Below are positions 43,053 to 53,400 of a DNA stretch of 64,000 bases, piece after piece. The stretch's first letter is position 1, and every line of letters starts with the position of its first letter. The notes under the pieces are model-generated. The model was not told the origin of the DNA. It searched no databases and saw nothing but the letters and a program-made list of their open reading frames with translations. This DNA comes from Lentzea aerocolonigenes. GTDB lineage: Bacteria; Actinomycetota; Actinomycetes; Mycobacteriales; Pseudonocardiaceae. The stretch covers positions 1 to 64,000 of the forward strand of contig NZ_BBOJ01000022.1 in the NCBI RefSeq assembly GCF_000974445.1, read 5' to 3'. The translations under genes and the position numbers were made by a program.

Positions 43053-43964
43053 TCAGAGGTCGCGGAACGCCTTGACCTCACCGAGCGTCGTCGCCTCGCG
43101 CGCACCGGACACCACGGCGTCCGCGAACACCTCCGCGGCCGCCGCGCAGAGGGCGTCGAGGGCGAACGGGCGCGGCTCCGCGAGCGGCACGGCACCCGTG
43201 GCCAGCGCGAACACCGTGTCGCCGTCGAACATCGAATGCGCCGGTCGCACGGCTCGCGCCAGGCCGTCCTGCGCCGCCATCGCGAGCCGCTGACACTCCG
43301 CTTTGGACAGATCCGCGTCCACCGCGACGACGCCGATCGTCGTGTTGAGGCCCTGCGGTTTGTGCTCGGGCAGCTCGACCGGCGTGGTGCCGAGCGACGG
43401 CAACCACGGCAGACCCGTTGCCCTGTCGACGACTTCACCGGCCGCGTTCACCACCGCCAGCGCGCCGACGTGGTGCTCGCCGACCTTCGTGGCCGCTGTG
43501 CCGACGCCGCCCTTCAACGACCCCACGCGCGCACCGGCACCCGCGCCGACGCAGCCGAGAGCGAACTCCGCGGAGGCGTTCGAGCAGGCCTCGTAGCCGA
43601 ACGACGCGTCCGGGCGGTTGCCCCACTCCGACATCGGCAGGTCGAAGATCACCGCGCCCGGCACGATCGGCACGACGTGGTGCGGCTGCGCGCCCACCTG
43701 GAAGCCGATCGACCGTTCCGAGAGCCACCGCATGACGCCGTCCGCCGCCGCGAGCCCGTACGCCGAGCCGCCGGACAGGCAGATCGCGTGCACCTGCTGC
43801 ACCAGGTTCGCCGGGTCCAGCAGGTCGGTCTCACGTGTTCCCGGCGCGCCACCGCGTCCGTCGACGGCGCCGACCGCACCGGAGGGCACCAGCACGACGG
43901 TGGTGCCGGTGGCCCAGCCCGGTTCGACGCGGTGGTGGTGGCCGACGAGAACGCCGGGAATCAC
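43053..43964 (-). CDS. P1-family (DmpA-like) peptidase
   Basis: A 303-residue self-processing N-terminal-nucleophile hydrolase of the DmpA/S58 group. GVLVGHHHRVEPGWATGTTVVL opens the fold, LSGGSAYGLAAADGVMRWL is near 63-81, and NTTIGVVAVDADLSKAECQRLA near 205-226 is where the chain is normally cut. The place matches Rv1333. GTG 43964 overlaps the DUF2017 stop. The substrate is unknown; beta-aminopeptidase is the best guess. Confidence 0.88.
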   Translation of the reverse strand: MIPGVLVGHHHRVEPGWATGTTVVLVPSGAVGAVDGRGGAPGTRETDLLDPANLVQQVHAICLSGGSAYGLAAADGVMRWLSERSIGFQVGAQPHHVVPIVPGAVIFDLPMSEWGNRPDASFGYEACSNASAEFALGCVGAGAGARVGSLKGGVGTAATKVGEHHVGALAVVNAAGEVVDRATGLPWLPSLGTTPVELPEHKPQGLNTTIGVVAVDADLSKAECQRLAMAAQDGLARAVRPAHSMFDGDTVFALATGAVPLAEPRPFALDALCAAAAEVFADAVVSGAREATTLGEVKAFRDL

Positions 43965-44518
43965 GGCATCATCGCCTCGACCAGGGTGTCCTGCACCCAG
44001 GTCAGCCAGTGGTAGACGCCGAGGTGCGGCGATCTCGGGTCTTCCGGCGGCAGCTCCTCCGGCATGTCCTCGGTGACGTCGAGCGCGGTCCCCAGCGCCA
44101 GGCGCACGTCGTTCAGCGACGCGAGCCAGGCCTCCGCCTCACCGATCGACAACCGGATCTCGCCGCCGTCGGGCGAGCACGTCTGGAGCACGACCTCGGC
44201 CGCGCCCGTCTTGTGGTCCAGCAGCTCCGGCTCGTGCAGCGACCGCAACGCCGCCGCGGAGTTGACCTCGTCGGGGTCCGGCGCGTCGTCGTCCAGGCGG
44301 TGGAAGTCGGGCAGCAGCCGGCCGAGGATCGGGTCGTCGGGTGCCTCCGACGAGCCCGTTCTGATGCCGGTGAGCTCCGCGAGCTCGTCCTGCGGCGCTT
44401 CTTCCGCGCGGGCCAGCAGCATGTCCTGGATCTGGCTGACCAGACCGCGCACGACCGCGGCCTCCTGCCGGTCCAGCCGCCCGATGACGACGTCGCCGTC
44501 GCGGATCCACCGCTTCAC
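43961..44518 (-). CDS. DUF2017 protein
   Basis: A 185-residue acidic soluble protein that stands next to clpS in many actinobacteria (Rv1332 position). [20 protein letters not shown] is near residues 15-35 and [23 protein letters not shown] ends it. The role is unknown, but fixed linkage to clpS suggests a link to Clp proteolysis. GTG 44518 overlaps the clpS stop as GTGA. Confidence 0.85.
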
Positions 44519-44814
44519 GAGGCCCGCTGCATGGTCGCCCAGAGGCCTGCCGCGTGGAGCTTCGCCACGTCGGCCTCCACCTTGTCCTTGGTGCCCGAGG
44601 TCACGATCGCCTTGCCCTTGTGGTGCACGTCGAGCATCAGCTTGGTCGCCTTGTCCCTGCTGAAGCCGAACAACTTCTGGAACACGTACGTCACGTAAGA
44701 CATGAGGTTCACCGGGTCGTTCCAGACCACGGTCTGCCACGGTCGGTCCTCGGCGGCGATCTCCGCGCCGACGGCCTCCGGCTGCGTCCGTTCCTGTTCG
44801 ACGGGCGTGGTCAT
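44515..44814 (-). CDS. clpS: ClpS adaptor for N-degron substrates
   Basis: A 99-residue adaptor bringing proteins with bulky N-terminal residues to ClpC/ClpP. The binding pocket sequence [24 protein letters not shown] (about 29-52) includes the Asn-Asp pair and Met. [10 protein letters not shown] near 62 is conserved. ATG 44814 heads the clpS-DUF2017-peptidase run and diverges from pncB. Confidence 0.95.
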
Positions 44815-46721: not shown

Positions 46722-47378
46722 CTAAGGCGTTGGTGAGCAGGCCACCGTTCCGACGGTGACGCTGCCCGTGTAGCCGGACGACGGCTCGAACGTGATCTTC
46801 AGCAGGGTCATGCTGATGCTGCCGTCGTTCGGCACCGGGAACACGGTGTCGGTGAACTTCGCCTTGGCGAGCACGGTTCCGTTGCTCGCCTTGACCTCGT
46901 GCACGTAGCCGGACGGGATCTGCTGCGGCAGCCCGGTCCAGCCGGACATGCCCTTGAGCTCCCAGCCCGCCTGCGTGCCCTTCTCGTCGGCGCTGCAGGT
47001 GATCGTCCACTCGGCGATCTTGAGCCGCGGCCCCTTCGCCGCGACGAGAGCCGACAGCTCGAACGCCTTGCCGGTGGCCACCGACTTGGTCCTGGTGAGG
47101 AGCTCGTCCGGGTTCACGACCTCGGTCGTGCACGTGGACGACGTCTCGCCGATCTTGAGCCCGTTCCTGTTCACGGCGGGGCTGGCTCCGGTGACGGTGC
47201 CAGCCTGGTCCGGGTTGACGTTGCACACGGCGAGAGGTTCCACCTTGTACGTCTGGTCCGCCTTGGCGAAGTCGGCCGAACCGGAAGACGCCGTGCCGGG
47301 TGGGTTGCCGGCGAGTGCGGGTGCCGCCGTCGCCAACGTCAACGCGACCACCGCCCCCGCGACCACACTCTTTCGCAC
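46722..47378 (-). CDS. Secreted protein of unknown function
   Basis: A 218-residue exported protein. A signal peptide covers about 1-24 (VVAGAVVALTLATAAPALAG). Cysteines occur in LAVCNVNP, SSTCTTE, WTITCSADEKG and TVACSPTP, allowing two disulfides. The strand-rich sequence looks like a beta-sandwich. GTG 47378 follows AGGGGA. It is downstream of wecB on the same strand after a 132-bp gap, and its leader shares a GGTAATT motif with the choice-of-anchor gene, so it may belong to that surface system. There is no membrane anchor. Confidence 0.75.
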   Translation of the reverse strand: MRKSVVAGAVVALTLATAAPALAGNPPGTASSGSADFAKADQTYKVEPLAVCNVNPDQAGTVTGASPAVNRNGLKIGETSSTCTTEVVNPDELLTRTKSVATGKAFELSALVAAKGPRLKIAEWTITCSADEKGTQAGWELKGMSGWTGLPQQIPSGYVHEVKASNGTVLAKAKFTDTVFPVPNDGSISMTLLKITFEPSSGYTGSVTVGTVACSPTP

Positions 47379-47510
47379 TGTTTCCCCTATGGCTCGAATT
47401 ACCACCGCCCGATAATGGTTGTGCCGGGTGGCGCGGATGACAGTTCGGCACCCCACGTCACCCGTTCGTGAAATAGCGATTACACGACCGAGTGACAGGC
47501 GAACTGTTCG

Positions 47511-48683
47511 TCAGTGAACACCCGCCAGCGTGGCGAACGGCTCCCGGCGCGGTAACGCGGTCGGCAGGCCCGCCAACCTCTCCAGGGCGGAGCACACCCG
47601 CACCGCGGCACGCCCGTCGCCGAACGGGTTGCGCCCCAGCGGGAGCCGCAACCGGGAGCCGAGCACCCACCCCGCCTCGGCGAGGATGCGGGTGGTGTCG
47701 GTGCCGACGAGCCAGGCGCACCCGGCGTCGACGGCGAGCATGCGTTCGGTCGTCTCCCGCAGCACCAGCACCGGCACGCCGAACGTGGGCGCCTCCTCCT
47801 GGATGCCACCGGAGTCCGTCAGAACCAGGGCGGCGCGCCGCAGCACGCGCACCAGGTCCGGGTAACCGAGCGGGTTGGTGATGACCACGCGTTCGTGGCC
47901 ACCCAGCAGGGACACGACCTGTTCGCGCACACCGGGGTTCGGGTGCGCGGGGATGAGCACGTGCACGTCGGGGTGGCGGTCGGCGATGGCGCGCACGGCG
48001 TTCAGCACGCGCATGAGCGGGCGGCCCCACGACTCGCGGCGGTGCACGGTGACGAGCACGAGCCTGCCACCGGTGGCGTCGAGGGTGCGTTCCAGGGCGA
48101 CGACGTCGGCGCTGGACGCGGGCAGGTCGGCGGACGCGACGCGCTGCACGGCGTCCACGACGGTGTTGCCGGTGACGACGATGTGGCTGTCCGGCAAGGA
48201 CTCCGTGTTCAGCGCGTTGGCGGCGTCGTCGGTCGGCGCGAGGTGCAGCGAGGTGATGCGGGAGATCATCTGCCGGTTCCCCTCCTCGGGGAACGGGCCG
48301 TACAGGTCACCGGTCCGCAGACCGGCTTCGAGGTGCGCCACGGGGATTCCGCGCCAGAACGAGGCGAGCGCCGCGGCCAGAGCCGTGGTGGTGTCGCCCT
48401 GCACGAGGGTGACCGCGGGGTCGCGGTCGGCCAGCACGGCGTCGAACTCGGGCAGCAACCGGGAGACCAGCTCGGACTGCGTGCCGGTGTGGCGGGGGAC
48501 GTCCAGCCGCACGTCGGGGACCAGGTCGAACGCGTCCAGCGCCTGTTCGACCAGGTCGGAGTGCTGTCCGCCGTGGACGATCGTCGGGCGAAGACCGGGG
48601 TGGCCCCTCAGCGCGATGGCGACCGGGGCGATCTTCACGGCTTCCGGCCGCGTGCCGGCCACCAGCAGAACTTCTTTGCTCAC
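47511..48683 (-). CDS. wecB: UDP-N-acetylglucosamine 2-epimerase (non-hydrolysing)
   Basis: A 390-residue enzyme converting UDP-GlcNAc to UDP-ManNAc for surface polysaccharides. VAGTRPEAVKIAPV opens the fold, VQGDTTTALAAALA is near 92, HLEAGLRTGD near 115, NTVVDAV near 172 and LTDSGGIQEEAPTFGVPVLVLRETTER near 280-306. GTG 48683 has GAGGA upstream. It lies with the small sorting-signal gene and the choice-of-anchor gene on one strand and opposite an exosortase and glycosyltransferase, which suggests a sugar donor role in that system. Confidence 0.93.
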   Translation of the reverse strand: MSKEVLLVAGTRPEAVKIAPVAIALRGHPGLRPTIVHGGQHSDLVEQALDAFDLVPDVRLDVPRHTGTQSELVSRLLPEFDAVLADRDPAVTLVQGDTTTALAAALASFWRGIPVAHLEAGLRTGDLYGPFPEEGNRQMISRITSLHLAPTDDAANALNTESLPDSHIVVTGNTVVDAVQRVASADLPASSADVVALERTLDATGGRLVLVTVHRRESWGRPLMRVLNAVRAIADRHPDVHVLIPAHPNPGVREQVVSLLGGHERVVITNPLGYPDLVRVLRRAALVLTDSGGIQEEAPTFGVPVLVLRETTERMLAVDAGCAWLVGTDTTRILAEAGWVLGSRLRLPLGRNPFGDGRAAVRVCSALERLAGLPTALPRREPFATLAGVH

Positions 48684-48750
48684 CGTTGTCCTCTTCTCGG
48701 GGAGACCGGGTGGTCCGCCTGGGAGCGGGGGCAACCCCAGGCGGACCGTG

Positions 48751-48942
48751 TCAGCCGGCTCGGTTCGGCCTGGCCTTCGCGGTGGCGGGGACGCGCTTGC
48801 GGCGCGTGCTGTGCATCAGGAACGCACCAGCGAGCAGGAGAACGACTCCCGCGACGATCCACCACGTCACGTTCGCGCCGGTGACCGCGAGGGCTCCGAC
48901 ACCAGTGCCGACACCGATGCCGGTACCGGGGACCTTGTACAT
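48751..48942 (-). CDS. 63-residue protein made of a LAVTG sorting signal
   Basis: A small protein starting MYKVPGTGIGVGTGVGALAVTG. It has no signal peptide and no domain. LAVTG is followed by a hydrophobic helix (WWIVAGVVLLLAGAFLM) and the basic tail HSTRRKR, the three parts of a sortase sorting signal. ATG 48942 has GAGGAG at 6 nt, so translation is well supported. It lies 12 bases after the choice-of-anchor gene and 67 before wecB. It could be a stand-alone anchor, a regulator or accessory of the exosortase, or a decayed C-terminus. I know of no described function. Confidence 0.75.
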   Translation of the reverse strand: MYKVPGTGIGVGTGVGALAVTGANVTWWIVAGVVLLLAGAFLMHSTRRKRVPATAKARPNRAG

Positions 48943-48953
48943 CTGCCGCTCCT

Positions 48954-49718
48954 CTAGGCCGCGTTGAGCGACGCGCGGCGGCGCAGCGCCACGAAGGCGA
49001 CCGGAGCGGCGACGACACCGAGCAGGCCGAGGCCGATCCACAGGCCCGCACCCGACGCCATCGGGATGGGCAGGCCGGCGGGGCCGCACGTGGCGGACGA
49101 GATGATCACGTCGCCGGTGCCGATGGAGCCGACCTTGCCCTGCAGCAGCTTGATGTGGATCGCGTTGACCGTCAGGCTGCCGTCGTCGTTCTTGTACTGC
49201 TCGTTGAAGACGACCTCGGCGATCTTGATCCCGGCGAGCTGCACGTCGAGCACCGTGTTGGGCGCCGGGTCGGCGTTGACCTGGCCGAGCTTGCCGAGGT
49301 TGACGCCCGCGAGCTTGGACTTGCCGGACAGACCCTTCTGGGTCGCCGTGCACTCCGCCTCCACCAGTTCGGCGGAGATCTTCCCGGTGACCTTGGAGAG
49401 CAGGTCGACCCTGACGTCCGCGGTGCTCGCCCGCGAGTACACGCCGCCGGACTTGTCGTCCCGCGACGCGGAGGCGTTGATGACACCGGTCTTCATGACT
49501 CCGGTGAGATCGACGCCGGCGAACGTGTTCTGCGTCGGCCCGTTCGCGTTGGCGGCGGCGAACGGTTCCGCGTTGACAGCGGGGTTGCCGAGCAGCGTCA
49601 CGTTGAGCCTCGCACCGTAGGCCGAGGCGTCCCCCGGAGCGGCCGAAGCAGGTGCGGCACCGACCAGGAGTGCGGCAATCGCGATGACTCCAGCCAGTCC
49701 CGTCATTCGGACACGCAT
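48954..49718 (-). CDS. Choice-of-anchor P-like surface protein
   Basis: A 254-residue exported protein. A signal peptide covers about 1-27 (VIAIAALLVGAAPASAAPG). The body (SAYGARLNVTLLGNPAVNAEP, GVINASASRDDKSGGVYSRASTADV) resembles the choice-of-anchor P family. The C-terminus has a short PIPMASG motif, one membrane helix (GLWIGLGLLGVVAAPVAFVAL) and RRRASLNAA, as expected of an exosortase or sortase substrate. Two cysteines (AECTATQ, ATCGPAG) may form a disulfide. ATG 49718 follows GGAAGGAG. It diverges from the exosortase gene and is its most likely substrate. Confidence 0.78.
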   Translation of the reverse strand: MRVRMTGLAGVIAIAALLVGAAPASAAPGDASAYGARLNVTLLGNPAVNAEPFAAANANGPTQNTFAGVDLTGVMKTGVINASASRDDKSGGVYSRASTADVRVDLLSKVTGKISAELVEAECTATQKGLSGKSKLAGVNLGKLGQVNADPAPNTVLDVQLAGIKIAEVVFNEQYKNDDGSLTVNAIHIKLLQGKVGSIGTGDVIISSATCGPAGLPIPMASGAGLWIGLGLLGVVAAPVAFVALRRRASLNAA

Positions 49719-50013
49719 GAAACTCCTTCCCTTGGTTCCTCCGGCCCCAGGGCGCGCCGATACCAAGGTGGTTTCACGCTTTCCGGGGGCAATTACCGGC
49801 ATCGGCTTTCTTTCGAGGGAACTGAGGGTTACTCCCCGTATCGAGCGACACGACCACTCGACTCGCCCAATCGGCGCCACTCATCGTGGAACTTCTGATC
49901 AATTTCCGGTCACGGCGTCACTCGATCCGGGGATGAGGGCTGACGTTGCGTCGACCGATGGAACGTCAGGTAGCCCGTCTGGGCGCTCCCTCATCGGTGG
50001 AAAGGATCCTCGG
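49719..50013. promoter_or_regulatory. Divergent control region of the exosortase locus
   Basis: A 295-bp region between the surface-protein gene and the exosortase gene. It is locally richer in A and T (49780-49830 and 49890-49910). AATTACC at 49791-49797 recurs upstream of the secreted protein gene at 47397-47403. GGAAAGGATC near 49999-50008 is the exosortase ribosome site. No gene is seen. Confidence 0.45.
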
Positions 50014-50532
50014 GTGACGCTTGCCGTGCGCCGCACCGCATTCCCGAGCCGGGTGACGGTGGTCGTCCTGCTCGCTCTCGCCGCCGGACTCGTGTTCGCG
50101 CACCGCCTGTACCGCACGGCGGAGATCTCGCTGTCCGGAGCGGTCCTGAGCGTCATCAGCTCCTACGGCGTGGCCGTGGTTCCCGAGCGCCAGACCGTCT
50201 ACTTCGGACTGGGCTCGGACACTCCGCTGGGCCTGCGCATGACACCGGAGTGCACCTCGGCGTTCCTGGTGCTGCCGTTGATCGTGGTCGGCGCGGTGAT
50301 GATCGCGTTGCGCCCGCGCATCCAGTCGCGCGTGCTGGTCGCGCTGGCGTTCGCGGCGTCGGCGGTCGTGATCGTGAACCAGTTCCGCGTGCTCACGCTG
50401 GTCGGACTGGTGCGGTGGCTGGGTGTCGACACCGGTTACTACTGGGGTCACACGCTGCTCGGGTCGATGGTGAGCGTGTTCGGTGGCGCGGCGGCGTTGG
50501 TCGCGTTCGTCTGGCTGGCCACGCGGAAGTGA
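50014..50532 (+). CDS. Small exosortase (XrtP-like)
   Basis: A 172-residue membrane protein with about four to five membrane helices. The exosortase catalytic residues are all present: Cys80 in TPECTSAFLVLPL, Arg125 in NQFRVLTLVG and His146 in YYWGHTLLGS. Exosortases and archaeosortases cleave C-terminal sorting signals and attach the protein to a lipid or glycan. This one is shorter than Gram-negative exosortases (about 290) and fits the minimal actinobacterial kind; naming it XrtP is an inference. GTG 50014 follows GGAAAGGATC. It overlaps the glycosyltransferase gene by 4 bases. Confidence 0.82.
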   Translation: MTLAVRRTAFPSRVTVVVLLALAAGLVFAHRLYRTAEISLSGAVLSVISSYGVAVVPERQTVYFGLGSDTPLGLRMTPECTSAFLVLPLIVVGAVMIALRPRIQSRVLVALAFAASAVVIVNQFRVLTLVGLVRWLGVDTGYYWGHTLLGSMVSVFGGAAALVAFVWLATRK

Positions 50533-51899
50533 GCCTCGACCTCGTTCTCGGGTTCACGCAGGCGCTCGCTCTGACGATGAGCGTCGCCTTCGTGACGTAC
50601 GTGTTCGTGATCGTGGTGCCGTACCTGCGGCGCAAGCCCGCGCCCGTCGGCGTGCCGGAGACGTTGGAGTGGCACTTCTTCGTGCCGTGCCGCGACGAGG
50701 AAGCCGTCATCGGCGCCACGATCCGCTATCTGCGCGAGACGTTCCCCATCGCGCACGTGTGGGTCATCGACGACGACTCCGACGACGGCACTGCGGGCGT
50801 CGTACGGACGTTGAAGCGCAACGGCGATGTCCGAGACACGCACATCCACCTCGTGCAGCGCCAACGGCCGTATGCCCGTACCGGCAAGGGCAACGCACTG
50901 AACGACGCCTACCGCACGTTGAAGCTGTGGATGGGCCGACGCGCGGACACGGACCGTGCGATCATCGTGGTGGTGGACGCCGACGGCCGGCCCGCGCCCA
51001 ACTGTCTTGAAGTCTGTGCGGCGTCTCATCTCTTCGGCAACCCGCGCATCGGCGCCGTGCAGGTCGACGTCCGGATGATCAACGCGGGTCAGCGTCAGCC
51101 CGGCGTCTCGTTGTGGCGGCGGACTTTCGGCGCCGCCCTGGTGCGGATGCAGGACCTGGAGTTCCGCACGGCCATCGCGGCGATCCAGCTGTCGCGCGGC
51201 GCGACCGGCACGATCTCCATGGGCGGCAACGGGCAGTTCACCCGCCTGTCCGCCTTGGACTCGATCGCCGGGCCGACGGGCAGCCCGTGGCGCGGTTCGC
51301 TGCTGGAGGACTTCGAGCTCGGCGTGCACCTGCTGACGGCGGGCTGGCACACCGGGTTCTCGTTGGACACGCACGTGAACCAGGAGGCGCTGTACTCGTT
51401 GCGGCGCTTCTTGGCGCAACGAACCCGTTGGGGCCAGGGAACCATGCAGTGCATGCGTTATCTGAGGCGCATCTGGGACTCCGAGCACCTGACGACTCTC
51501 GGTGCCGCCGAGATGATGTACTACCTCGCGCAACCGTGGATGCAGTTGCTCGGCACGGTGATCTACCCGATCCCCATGGCGCTCATGGCTTACCGGTTCG
51601 TGGTGTCGCCATCCGAAGTCGTGGCGTGGTTCTTCGACGGCGCGTGGATCCTCTTCACCGTGTACGGCGCGTTCGGTCTGTTGCCCTTCGTTTTGTGGGG
51701 ACCGGTGTATCGCGCGCGTTGTGTGCCCGTCGGCTTCTGGAAGTCCATCGGGTACGGACTCGGTTACGCGCTGTACATCTACACCTTCTACATCACGTCG
51801 TGGCGCGCGCTGATCCGCTTGGTGCGCGGCAACAACGGCTGGACCAAGACGAGGCGCAACGAGGAGCGGGCCGCGGGCAAGGTCGCGCTCGATGTGTAA
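50529..51899 (+). CDS. Membrane-bound GT2 glycosyltransferase next to exosortase
   Basis: A 456-residue processive-type family 2 glycosyltransferase. One membrane helix near residues 12-31 precedes the catalytic domain, and about four follow from 315. UDP-sugar and metal residues are Asp81-83 (VIDDDSDDGT) and Asp150/152 (VVDADGRPAP). The acceptor motif is Glu260-Asp261 (LLEDFELGVHL) and QRTRW is at 297-301. It probably makes or extrudes a lipid-linked or free glycan that the exosortase attaches to its substrate. GTG 50529 overlaps the exosortase stop as GTGA, which ties the two functions. Confidence 0.88.
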   Translation: MSLDLVLGFTQALALTMSVAFVTYVFVIVVPYLRRKPAPVGVPETLEWHFFVPCRDEEAVIGATIRYLRETFPIAHVWVIDDDSDDGTAGVVRTLKRNGDVRDTHIHLVQRQRPYARTGKGNALNDAYRTLKLWMGRRADTDRAIIVVVDADGRPAPNCLEVCAASHLFGNPRIGAVQVDVRMINAGQRQPGVSLWRRTFGAALVRMQDLEFRTAIAAIQLSRGATGTISMGGNGQFTRLSALDSIAGPTGSPWRGSLLEDFELGVHLLTAGWHTGFSLDTHVNQEALYSLRRFLAQRTRWGQGTMQCMRYLRRIWDSEHLTTLGAAEMMYYLAQPWMQLLGTVIYPIPMALMAYRFVVSPSEVVAWFFDGAWILFTVYGAFGLLPFVLWGPVYRARCVPVGFWKSIGYGLGYALYIYTFYITSWRALIRLVRGNNGWTKTRRNEERAAGKVALDV

Positions 51900-52614: not shown

Positions 52615-53400
52615 GTGACGACGCACACCCCGGAAGAGCTGGGCTGCCTGGCCGGCGGGCCCGCCCGCGCCGCCGAGGTCGCCCTGGCCCGGCTGCTGCA
52701 CGCGGGCCTGGTCCGGGTGTCCCGCGACGGCGTGGTGACCGCCGTCCAGCACCACCCGGGCCGCGTTTCTCCGCTGGAAGCCCAGATCCTGAGCGGAGTC
52801 CGCACCGGACGCCATCTCAACGACGTCCTGCACTCCGCGGCGACCTCGCCCGAGGCGGCCGGGCTGCGCGCCCACCTCGCCGACCGCGGCCTGCTGCGGC
52901 GCCGGCGTTCCTGGCGGCCCCGGCTGTACCCGTGGCTGCGCCTGCTCGGGGTCGGCCTCCTGGTGGCCGGTGTCGGCCGCCTCGCCGCTCCGGAGCTCGT
53001 GGCGAAGCACGTGCCGCAGGTGACCGGGTTTCCGCTCTGGTGCCTCTTCGCCGCCGCGGTGTTGTTGTTCGTGTGGGCCACCGTGCTGAGCGCGCGCGAC
53101 CCCGGCCGGCTGCGCACCAGAGCGGGGCGCCGGGCGGTTCGCCGGGCGGCAGGCCACGTCTCCGCGCACGACCCGGTGGGCGCGGTCGCGGTGAGAGGCC
53201 TGCGGGGCAGGATCGGCCGCCTCGCGATCGCGGGCATGGTCGGTCTGACACCGGTGGCCGTCGGCATGGTGCCCCACCGGGACACGTCGTCGAGCAGCAG
53301 TTGCGGCGGCGGGTGTTCGTCGAGCTCGTGCGGCGGTGACAGCGGCGGTGACTCAGGTGGCGGCGGCTGCGGTGGTGGGTGTGGTGGCGGCGGCGACTGA
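52615..53400 (+). CDS. TIGR04222-like membrane protein with Gly/Cys-rich tail
   Basis: A 261-residue protein. The N-terminal soluble half (about 1-95) has EELGCLAGGPARAAEVALARLL, typical of the TIGR04222 group. Two membrane segments lie near 106-122 and 135-158. The end is a low-complexity run of Ser, Gly and Cys (SSSSSCGGGCSSSSCGGDSGG then GGGCGGGCGGGG), with six cysteines, which may bind metal or be modified. The function is unknown. GTG 52615 has no clear ribosome site. It lies 55 bases after bioY. Confidence 0.72.
   Translation: MTTHTPEELGCLAGGPARAAEVALARLLHAGLVRVSRDGVVTAVQHHPGRVSPLEAQILSGVRTGRHLNDVLHSAATSPEAAGLRAHLADRGLLRRRRSWRPRLYPWLRLLGVGLLVAGVGRLAAPELVAKHVPQVTGFPLWCLFAAAVLLFVWATVLSARDPGRLRTRAGRRAVRRAAGHVSAHDPVGAVAVRGLRGRIGRLAIAGMVGLTPVAVGMVPHRDTSSSSSCGGGCSSSSCGGDSGGDSGGGGCGGGCGGGGD

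Follow-up and report, generated by a model that had tools for sequence, protein, structure and literature searches.

NCBIfam describes an exosortase P system through the models NF012139, NF053846 and the pair NF053845/NF040603, and all four are passed by genes in the 64,000-nucleotide stretch of the Lentzea aerocolonigenes genome analysed here (the window), which was read closely from about 43 to 56 kb. The locus in question comprises an exosortase gene (xrtP), a family 2 glycosyltransferase gene (GT2), the gene of a choice-of-anchor P surface protein (coaP), a gene for a very small protein with an LAxTG motif (the mini-protein), and wecB, for a UDP-N-acetylglucosamine (UDP-GlcNAc) 2-epimerase. 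These five genes form a compact set that is widespread in soil actinobacteria. It is a recognised, curated kind of locus, and the window copy does not differ from the NCBIfam system. What is new lies outside the window: loss of the exosortase cysteine is coupled to loss of CoaP, and this is the most interesting result of the analysis. Compared with the models, the inactive XrtP forms and the constant membership of wecB and the LAxTG gene are new, although curators may know part of this.

Two other described systems resemble the locus. The XrtG system of Gram-positive bacteria likewise combines an exosortase, one CTERM protein and glycosyltransferases (PMC12854382), but the NCBIfam matches of the window proteins P0001 and P0002 include no XrtG model, and the available part of that paper names neither a wecB nor an LAxTG gene. 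PEP-CTERM/EpsH systems, as described in the accessible portions of PMC1569441 and PMC12188702, also place an exosortase with Cys, Arg and His beside polysaccharide genes. Those portions give at least eight predicted helices, whereas the window exosortase is short, at 172 residues. It falls under the cut-offs of the EpsH-type models (PF09721, 17.9 bits against 25.7; TIGR02602, 13 against 105.55), and its module differs further in having one substrate, with PxPxASG rather than PEP, and in belonging to a Gram-positive envelope.

The exosortase P locus of the window

The xrtP gene (50014..50532, + strand) encodes the 172-residue exosortase P, which scores 266.8 bits against NF012139 (cut-off 200). 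The codons of its catalytic residues lie at 50251-50253 (Cys80), 50386-50388 (Arg125) and 50449-50451 (His146). Its end overlaps by 4 bases the start, at 50529, of the gene for the XrtP-associated membrane glycosyltransferase (50529..51899, + strand, 456 residues; NF053846, 716 bits, cut-off 520). Diverging from this pair is coaP (48954..49718, − strand, 254 residues; NF040603, 98.3 bits, cut-off 27; NF053845, 61.6 bits, cut-off 35), with its sorting tail (CoaP_CTERM, NF053845) encoded at 48972..49073 on the same strand. The 295-base intergenic region between them (49719..50013) is the presumed site of both promoters; its length ranges from 200 to 404 bases across 78 loci, and shared 8-mers within it were counted, with no motif claimed. 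Behind coaP on the − strand follow the gene for the mini-protein, 63 residues long with the motif LAVTG (48751..48942; NF058583, LAXTG_small_WW, 87.6 bits, cut-off 65), and wecB (47511..48683; TIGR00236, 376.9 bits, cut-off 210.15), whose product is a non-hydrolysing epimerase associated with UDP-N-acetylmannosamine (UDP-ManNAc). XrtP, GT2, CoaP (in two models) and WecB all clear their NCBIfam cut-offs widely, far beyond chance.

A first-pass annotation of this DNA had described a 172-residue exosortase with Cys80, Arg125 and His146 that overlaps a GT2, a divergent surface protein with a C-terminal helix and an arginine cluster, and wecB behind it. Translation (with RRR present in CoaP), a structure model of CoaP (helix at 224-253) and the TIGR00236 match agree with that description. 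The same annotation overlooked the LAVTG gene between coaP and wecB. Its view that the gene set was not characterised is not supported, because curated NCBIfam models exist for the exosortase, GT2, CoaP and the LAxTG protein, one of them named for its link to XrtP. Literature searches, partly confined to top-ranked results, returned no experiment on XrtP, its GT2, CoaP or the LAxTG protein, which is no proof of absence.

XrtP carries the signature of the exosortase/archaeosortase superfamily (TIGR04178, 30.1 bits, cut-off 23), and its Cys, Arg and His are invariant in all 14 sequences of the XrtP alignment (A1). CoaP has a signal peptide (judged by eye), an all-beta head, the PxPxASG motif, the C-terminal helix and a basic tail; residues C211, G212, P217, P219, A221, S222, G223, G225 and W227 are invariant in 37 CoaP sequences. 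Structure leaves the function of both proteins undecided, because neither the XrtP model (mean predicted local distance difference test score, pLDDT, 83) nor the CoaP model (78) has a match with E<=0.001 in a fold search of the PDB; PDB sequence searches with A1, P0003 and P0002 gave nothing useful. The CoaP tail at 48972..49073 is the sole match found in the window's genome. In a sample of 150 genomes, all 26 over the XrtP cut-off have a CoaP tail, 25 of them above the tail's own cut-off and the last, G097, with a masked run at the tail. Processive GT2 synthases share the motif set D, DxD, ED and QxxRW. The window GT2 carries D, DxD, ED and QRTRW, and all four processive-synthase motifs are present in 137 of the 139 GT2 homologues that score over 480 bits. 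The genome holds two wecB matches, one of which is the gene of this locus.

A recurrent five-gene module

Is this arrangement peculiar to the window? A search of a collection of 84,980 species with the XrtP alignment gave 84 pattern-matching stretches, of which 77 were confirmed as loci, 76 labelled Pseudonocardiaceae and one Nocardia. All 77 have the order wecB (−), LAxTG (−), coaP (−), xrtP (+), GT2 (+), as judged by profiles built from these same loci; seven arrangements that looked irregular at first proved regular in the profile searches. Among 390 genomes of the family, 125 exceed the XrtP cut-off, with 127 loci. The stretches read in these 390 genomes hold 129 loci with all five genes, under preset limits of 150 bits for XrtP, 120 for CoaP, 600 for GT2, 30 for LAxTG and 300 for wecB. 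The presence of wecB is part of this definition of a complete module, and all 127 loci over the XrtP cut-off fall within it; the 129 include the window and two diverged copies in genome G204. Thus, the linkage of exosortase, GT2, wecB and CoaP, whose recurrence had been named as a check on the idea of a system, does recur. Gene order is standard in 127 of the 129 family modules; in the other two (L173, L174), wecB has moved to the far side of GT2 and is still adjacent. The LAxTG gene adjoins coaP, and XrtP keeps its Cys, Arg and His, in every one of the 129. Matches to fragments in G291 (L176), G020, G320 and G516 were left aside.

Two genomes hold two complete modules each. In G204 (L137 and L138), two CoaP-tail matches accompany two diverged XrtP, at 191 and 177 bits, both under the cut-off. 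In Actinokineospora iranica (L075 and L094), one module lies at the pncA-dinG site and the other elsewhere.

Loss of the XrtP cysteine together with CoaP

In four of the loci read, a full-length XrtP-type frame stands without CoaP: L157 and L159 (both in G373), L135 (G246) and L139 (G299). The cysteine is gone in all four. The residues at the Cys/Arg/His positions are V/H/H in L157, N/R/A in L159, H/R/A in L135 and G/R/H in L139. No CoaP tail was found in G246, G299 or G373 among the 150 first-look candidates scored per genome, and the gap in the CoaP-less loci shows no convincing CoaP remnant (best tblastn E 0.085). GT2, the LAxTG gene and wecB are retained in L135, L157 and L159; L139 is without GT2. 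As to exosortases other than XrtP, Cys, Arg and His are kept in all 23 such loci read.

The XrtP of L157, at 184 bits, is clearly XrtP. Three things assign L135 and L159 to XrtP: the scores of their GT2 (803 and 807 bits with the module's own profile), the LAxTG and wecB genes near by, and the GT2 tree, in which they form one branch (100/100) that falls inside the module clade with weak support (88/69). L157 occupies another branch of this tree, inside the Amycolatopsis group. An approximately unbiased (AU) test rejects module carriers as one clade (p 1.1e-7), a result that may rest mostly on L157. Two separate branches, together with the GT2-less L139, suggest three events of cysteine loss.

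The inactive pair L135/L159, which spans two genera, is under purifying selection: its nonsynonymous (dN) and synonymous (dS) divergences are 0.33 and 1.00 over 176 aligned residues, and the dN/dS values of active XrtP pairs run from 0.23/0.57 to 0.46/0.74. The GT2 end branches beside inactive XrtP measure 0.14-0.36, as against 1.56 and 1.69 for two GT2 without XrtP. Since the cysteine is lost with CoaP and XrtP is kept beside GT2, these sequence patterns suggest that the XrtP cysteine acts on CoaP and that XrtP has a second role beside GT2, one that needs no catalysis.

The LAxTG mini-protein

The mini-protein begins with a short N-tail rich in Gly, followed by LAVTG, a single membrane helix and a basic tail; it also exceeds the cut-offs of NF058582 and TIGR01167. 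It has no N-terminal signal peptide: of 136 homologues, 133 have ATG or GTG immediately before a conserved Tyr, and LAVTG is reached after only some 20 residues. The residue between LA and TG is A in 84 homologues, V in 29, M in 10, Y in 5, L in 3, and T and S in 2 each; the third residue of the protein is Lys in 103/135 and Arg in 29/135. In the available text of PMC5148588, LAXTG is given as the signal that class E sortases use. The mini-protein resembles their substrates in its motif, helix and basic tail, and the window's genome has four sortase-family genes, one of them class E and over its cut-off (253.7 bits against 160); the other three are nearest class F, one over its cut-off. It differs from class E substrates in the missing signal peptide and the short run before the motif.

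A pattern of start codon, Tyr, LAxTG, helix and basic tail gave 77 matches inside the 77 named modules and zero elsewhere in their 1.39 Mb, with every position in four truncated loci counted as inside. The same pattern occurs near all eight of the non-XrtP exosortases read in the family and near five of 15 in the order; three more of the 15 have weak profile matches only and seven have none. The short non-XrtP exosortases of L142, L158, L160, L162-L165 and L277-L291 all lie near a GT2, many of them also near an MY...LAxTG mini-protein. Five of these that were scanned fall under the cut-offs of XrtP, XrtR and XrtS and may represent unnamed subfamilies. CoaP-like head domains (52-102 bits) also accompany the exosortases of L277, L278 and L279, which come from families of the order other than the window's. 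At L134 (G217), only wecB and an LAxTG homologue that has lost its usual start are left, and the gap is filled by a large open reading frame that by eye resembles a translation GTPase, for which no search was made.

Mechanism and alternatives

How might the module work? We consider it probable that the locus couples an exosortase P system, with a single enzyme and a single substrate, to a small synthase of an envelope glycan. Judged from its family, WecB would make UDP-ManNAc. The GT2, given its motifs and its pairing with wecB, would use UDP-ManNAc, alone or with UDP-GlcNAc, and would both make and extrude a polymer. CoaP would be exported by the Sec route and halted in the membrane at its C-terminal helix, where Cys80 of XrtP, with Arg125 and His146, would cleave it near PxPxASG; dependence on the cysteine is supported by evolution. 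XrtP would then transfer CoaP to an acceptor, for which the glycan or the lipid that carries it is the likeliest candidate. In an archaeon, ArtA-dependent cleavage and lipid anchoring offer a precedent for a lipid acceptor (PMC7157517, in its accessible part). The mini-protein would lie with its N-terminus outside, and its Gly-rich N-peptide is probably attached to the wall by the class E sortase; the mini-protein appears to belong to the glycan half because it is kept in loci without CoaP. Conservation suggests that XrtP probably serves the GT2 complex in a non-catalytic way as well. A more specific version, offered tentatively, is that XrtP may be bifunctional in the glycan-synthase complex, with a catalytic site that serves CoaP only and a membrane body that GT2 needs; the LAxTG protein would then be a third partner, distinct from CoaP, that many short actinobacterial exosortases have in common.

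Several observations weigh against such a coupled module. XrtP is not strictly needed, because GT2 persists beside wecB without XrtP in L136 and L143, on the two long branches given above. G287 and G300 have lost XrtP, and their GT2 is fragmented or gone, yet they retain the LAxTG gene, wecB and a CoaP whose tail is intact; G125 has CoaP with no XrtP over the cut-off. Either these are recent losses or the tail has another use. Similarly, wecB may have other uses, because it is kept where most else is lost (L134, L139-L141). Among the loci without CoaP, the broken L140 has all three catalytic residues in what is left of its XrtP, and the frames of L135 and L159 reach only 66 and 63 bits, although XrtP is still the best subfamily, with a long common stem (0.56) in the GT2 tree. 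In a Gram-negative exopolysaccharide locus, disruption of EpsH left the polysaccharide methanolan unaffected (PMC1569441, in the portion available); EpsH belongs to another exosortase family, and the result speaks against a general rule of a non-catalytic exosortase role. The GT2 without XrtP, the CoaP that L130 and L131 keep, with its tail intact, without an intact GT2, and the unchanged methanolan would all suit a pair of independent neighbours, in which the exosortase only releases or anchors CoaP, the glycan of GT2 and wecB never meets CoaP, and the genes share no more than regulation. We think this unlikely, given the strict five-gene order in 77/77 named and 127/129 family loci, a GT2 near the exosortase in all 23 non-XrtP loci read, and the three loci that keep a Cys-less XrtP beside an intact GT2. 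Most loci that have lost XrtP or hold it broken also lack GT2 or have only fragments of it (L130, L131, L134, L140, L141, L167, with scars in L296 and L297). A somewhat doubtful but real possibility is that the inactive XrtP copies are decaying genes, or that their nucleophile has moved, so that XrtP has no second role. L139, which lost GT2 as well as Cys, is weakly constrained (pN/pS, the ratio of nonsynonymous to synonymous differences, 0.67-0.79) and looks like decay. L140, L141 and L167 hold broken XrtP and GT2. L135 and L159 have a Cys in the last helix, at the invariant Gly157 of active XrtP. However, this pair has kept open frames in two genera at a dN/dS of about 0.33, L157 lost Cys and Arg on a separate branch, and the GT2 beside all three keeps its motifs, on the short end branches noted above.

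Two further explanations concern the mini-protein and the origin of the locus. XrtP could join CoaP to the mini-protein as an adaptor, and sortase E could join both to peptidoglycan; the constant adjacency of the two genes in complete modules (129/129) and the Lys at the third position in 103/135 would agree with this. The idea was dropped as very improbable, since the candidate CoaP-accepting residue is Arg in 29/135 and the mini-protein is kept in three loci that lack both CoaP and the XrtP Cys. The first-pass annotation had also taken the locus for an acquired island, and a recent acquisition between pncA and dinG seems to us very improbable too. The stretch read contains pncA or dinG in 39 of the 77 loci, under nine genus names (in L111 in another arrangement), and XrtP is present in 23 of the 24 genomes listed for the window's genus group. 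The 24th, G471, still has wecB and GT2 fragments in the corresponding position and thus has lost the module; G326, also without the module, likewise has a pncA-dinG site with fragments of wecB and/or GT2. A secreted paralogue of the CoaP head (46722..47456, − strand, in the window) matches no Pfam family and ends where the sorting tail of CoaP would start; a profile comparison with hhalign (A2 against A4) gives a probability of 99.3. This head-only gene occupies the pncA-dinG site in all seven family genomes picked for lacking XrtP, G471 and G326 among them; it is a resident of the site, neither a core part of the module nor dependent on it. Its presence there, with the fragments in G471 and G326, argues for loss of the module rather than recent gain. 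Four genomes of the order from outside the family have neither the head-only gene nor module fragments at the site. In the GT2 tree the window falls among carriers belonging to related genera, and G+C over 46.7-51.9 kb is 0.61-0.74, against 0.64-0.77 in the flanks. On the other side, all 37 named Amycolatopsis loci and the second Actinokineospora copy have neither pncA nor dinG in the stretch read, some of these stretches ending at contig ends, so the module can move. Elsewhere in the window lie a gene for a membrane protein with a TIGR04222 domain (52615-53400, + strand; 89 bits, cut-off 43) and a Ser/Gly/Cys-rich tail, and one for an AosR-like oxidative stress regulator (43961-44740, − strand; 225 bits, under its cut-off of 260).

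Implications

What does so small a module tell us? It holds just a single exosortase, substrate, synthase, sugar enzyme and mini-protein, and natural losses separate its halves. It bears on two questions: why exosortases are placed beside polysaccharide genes, and what acceptors their substrates are joined to. If XrtP does have a second role, lineages that drop CoaP can keep it as a pseudo-exosortase, and the position of exosortases next to polysaccharide genes would reflect a structural part played in the synthase, and not just the binding of its product by their substrates. The CoaP-less relatives also yield a prediction, namely that the glycan should be disturbed when XrtP is removed, even in loci where it is unable to cut anything.

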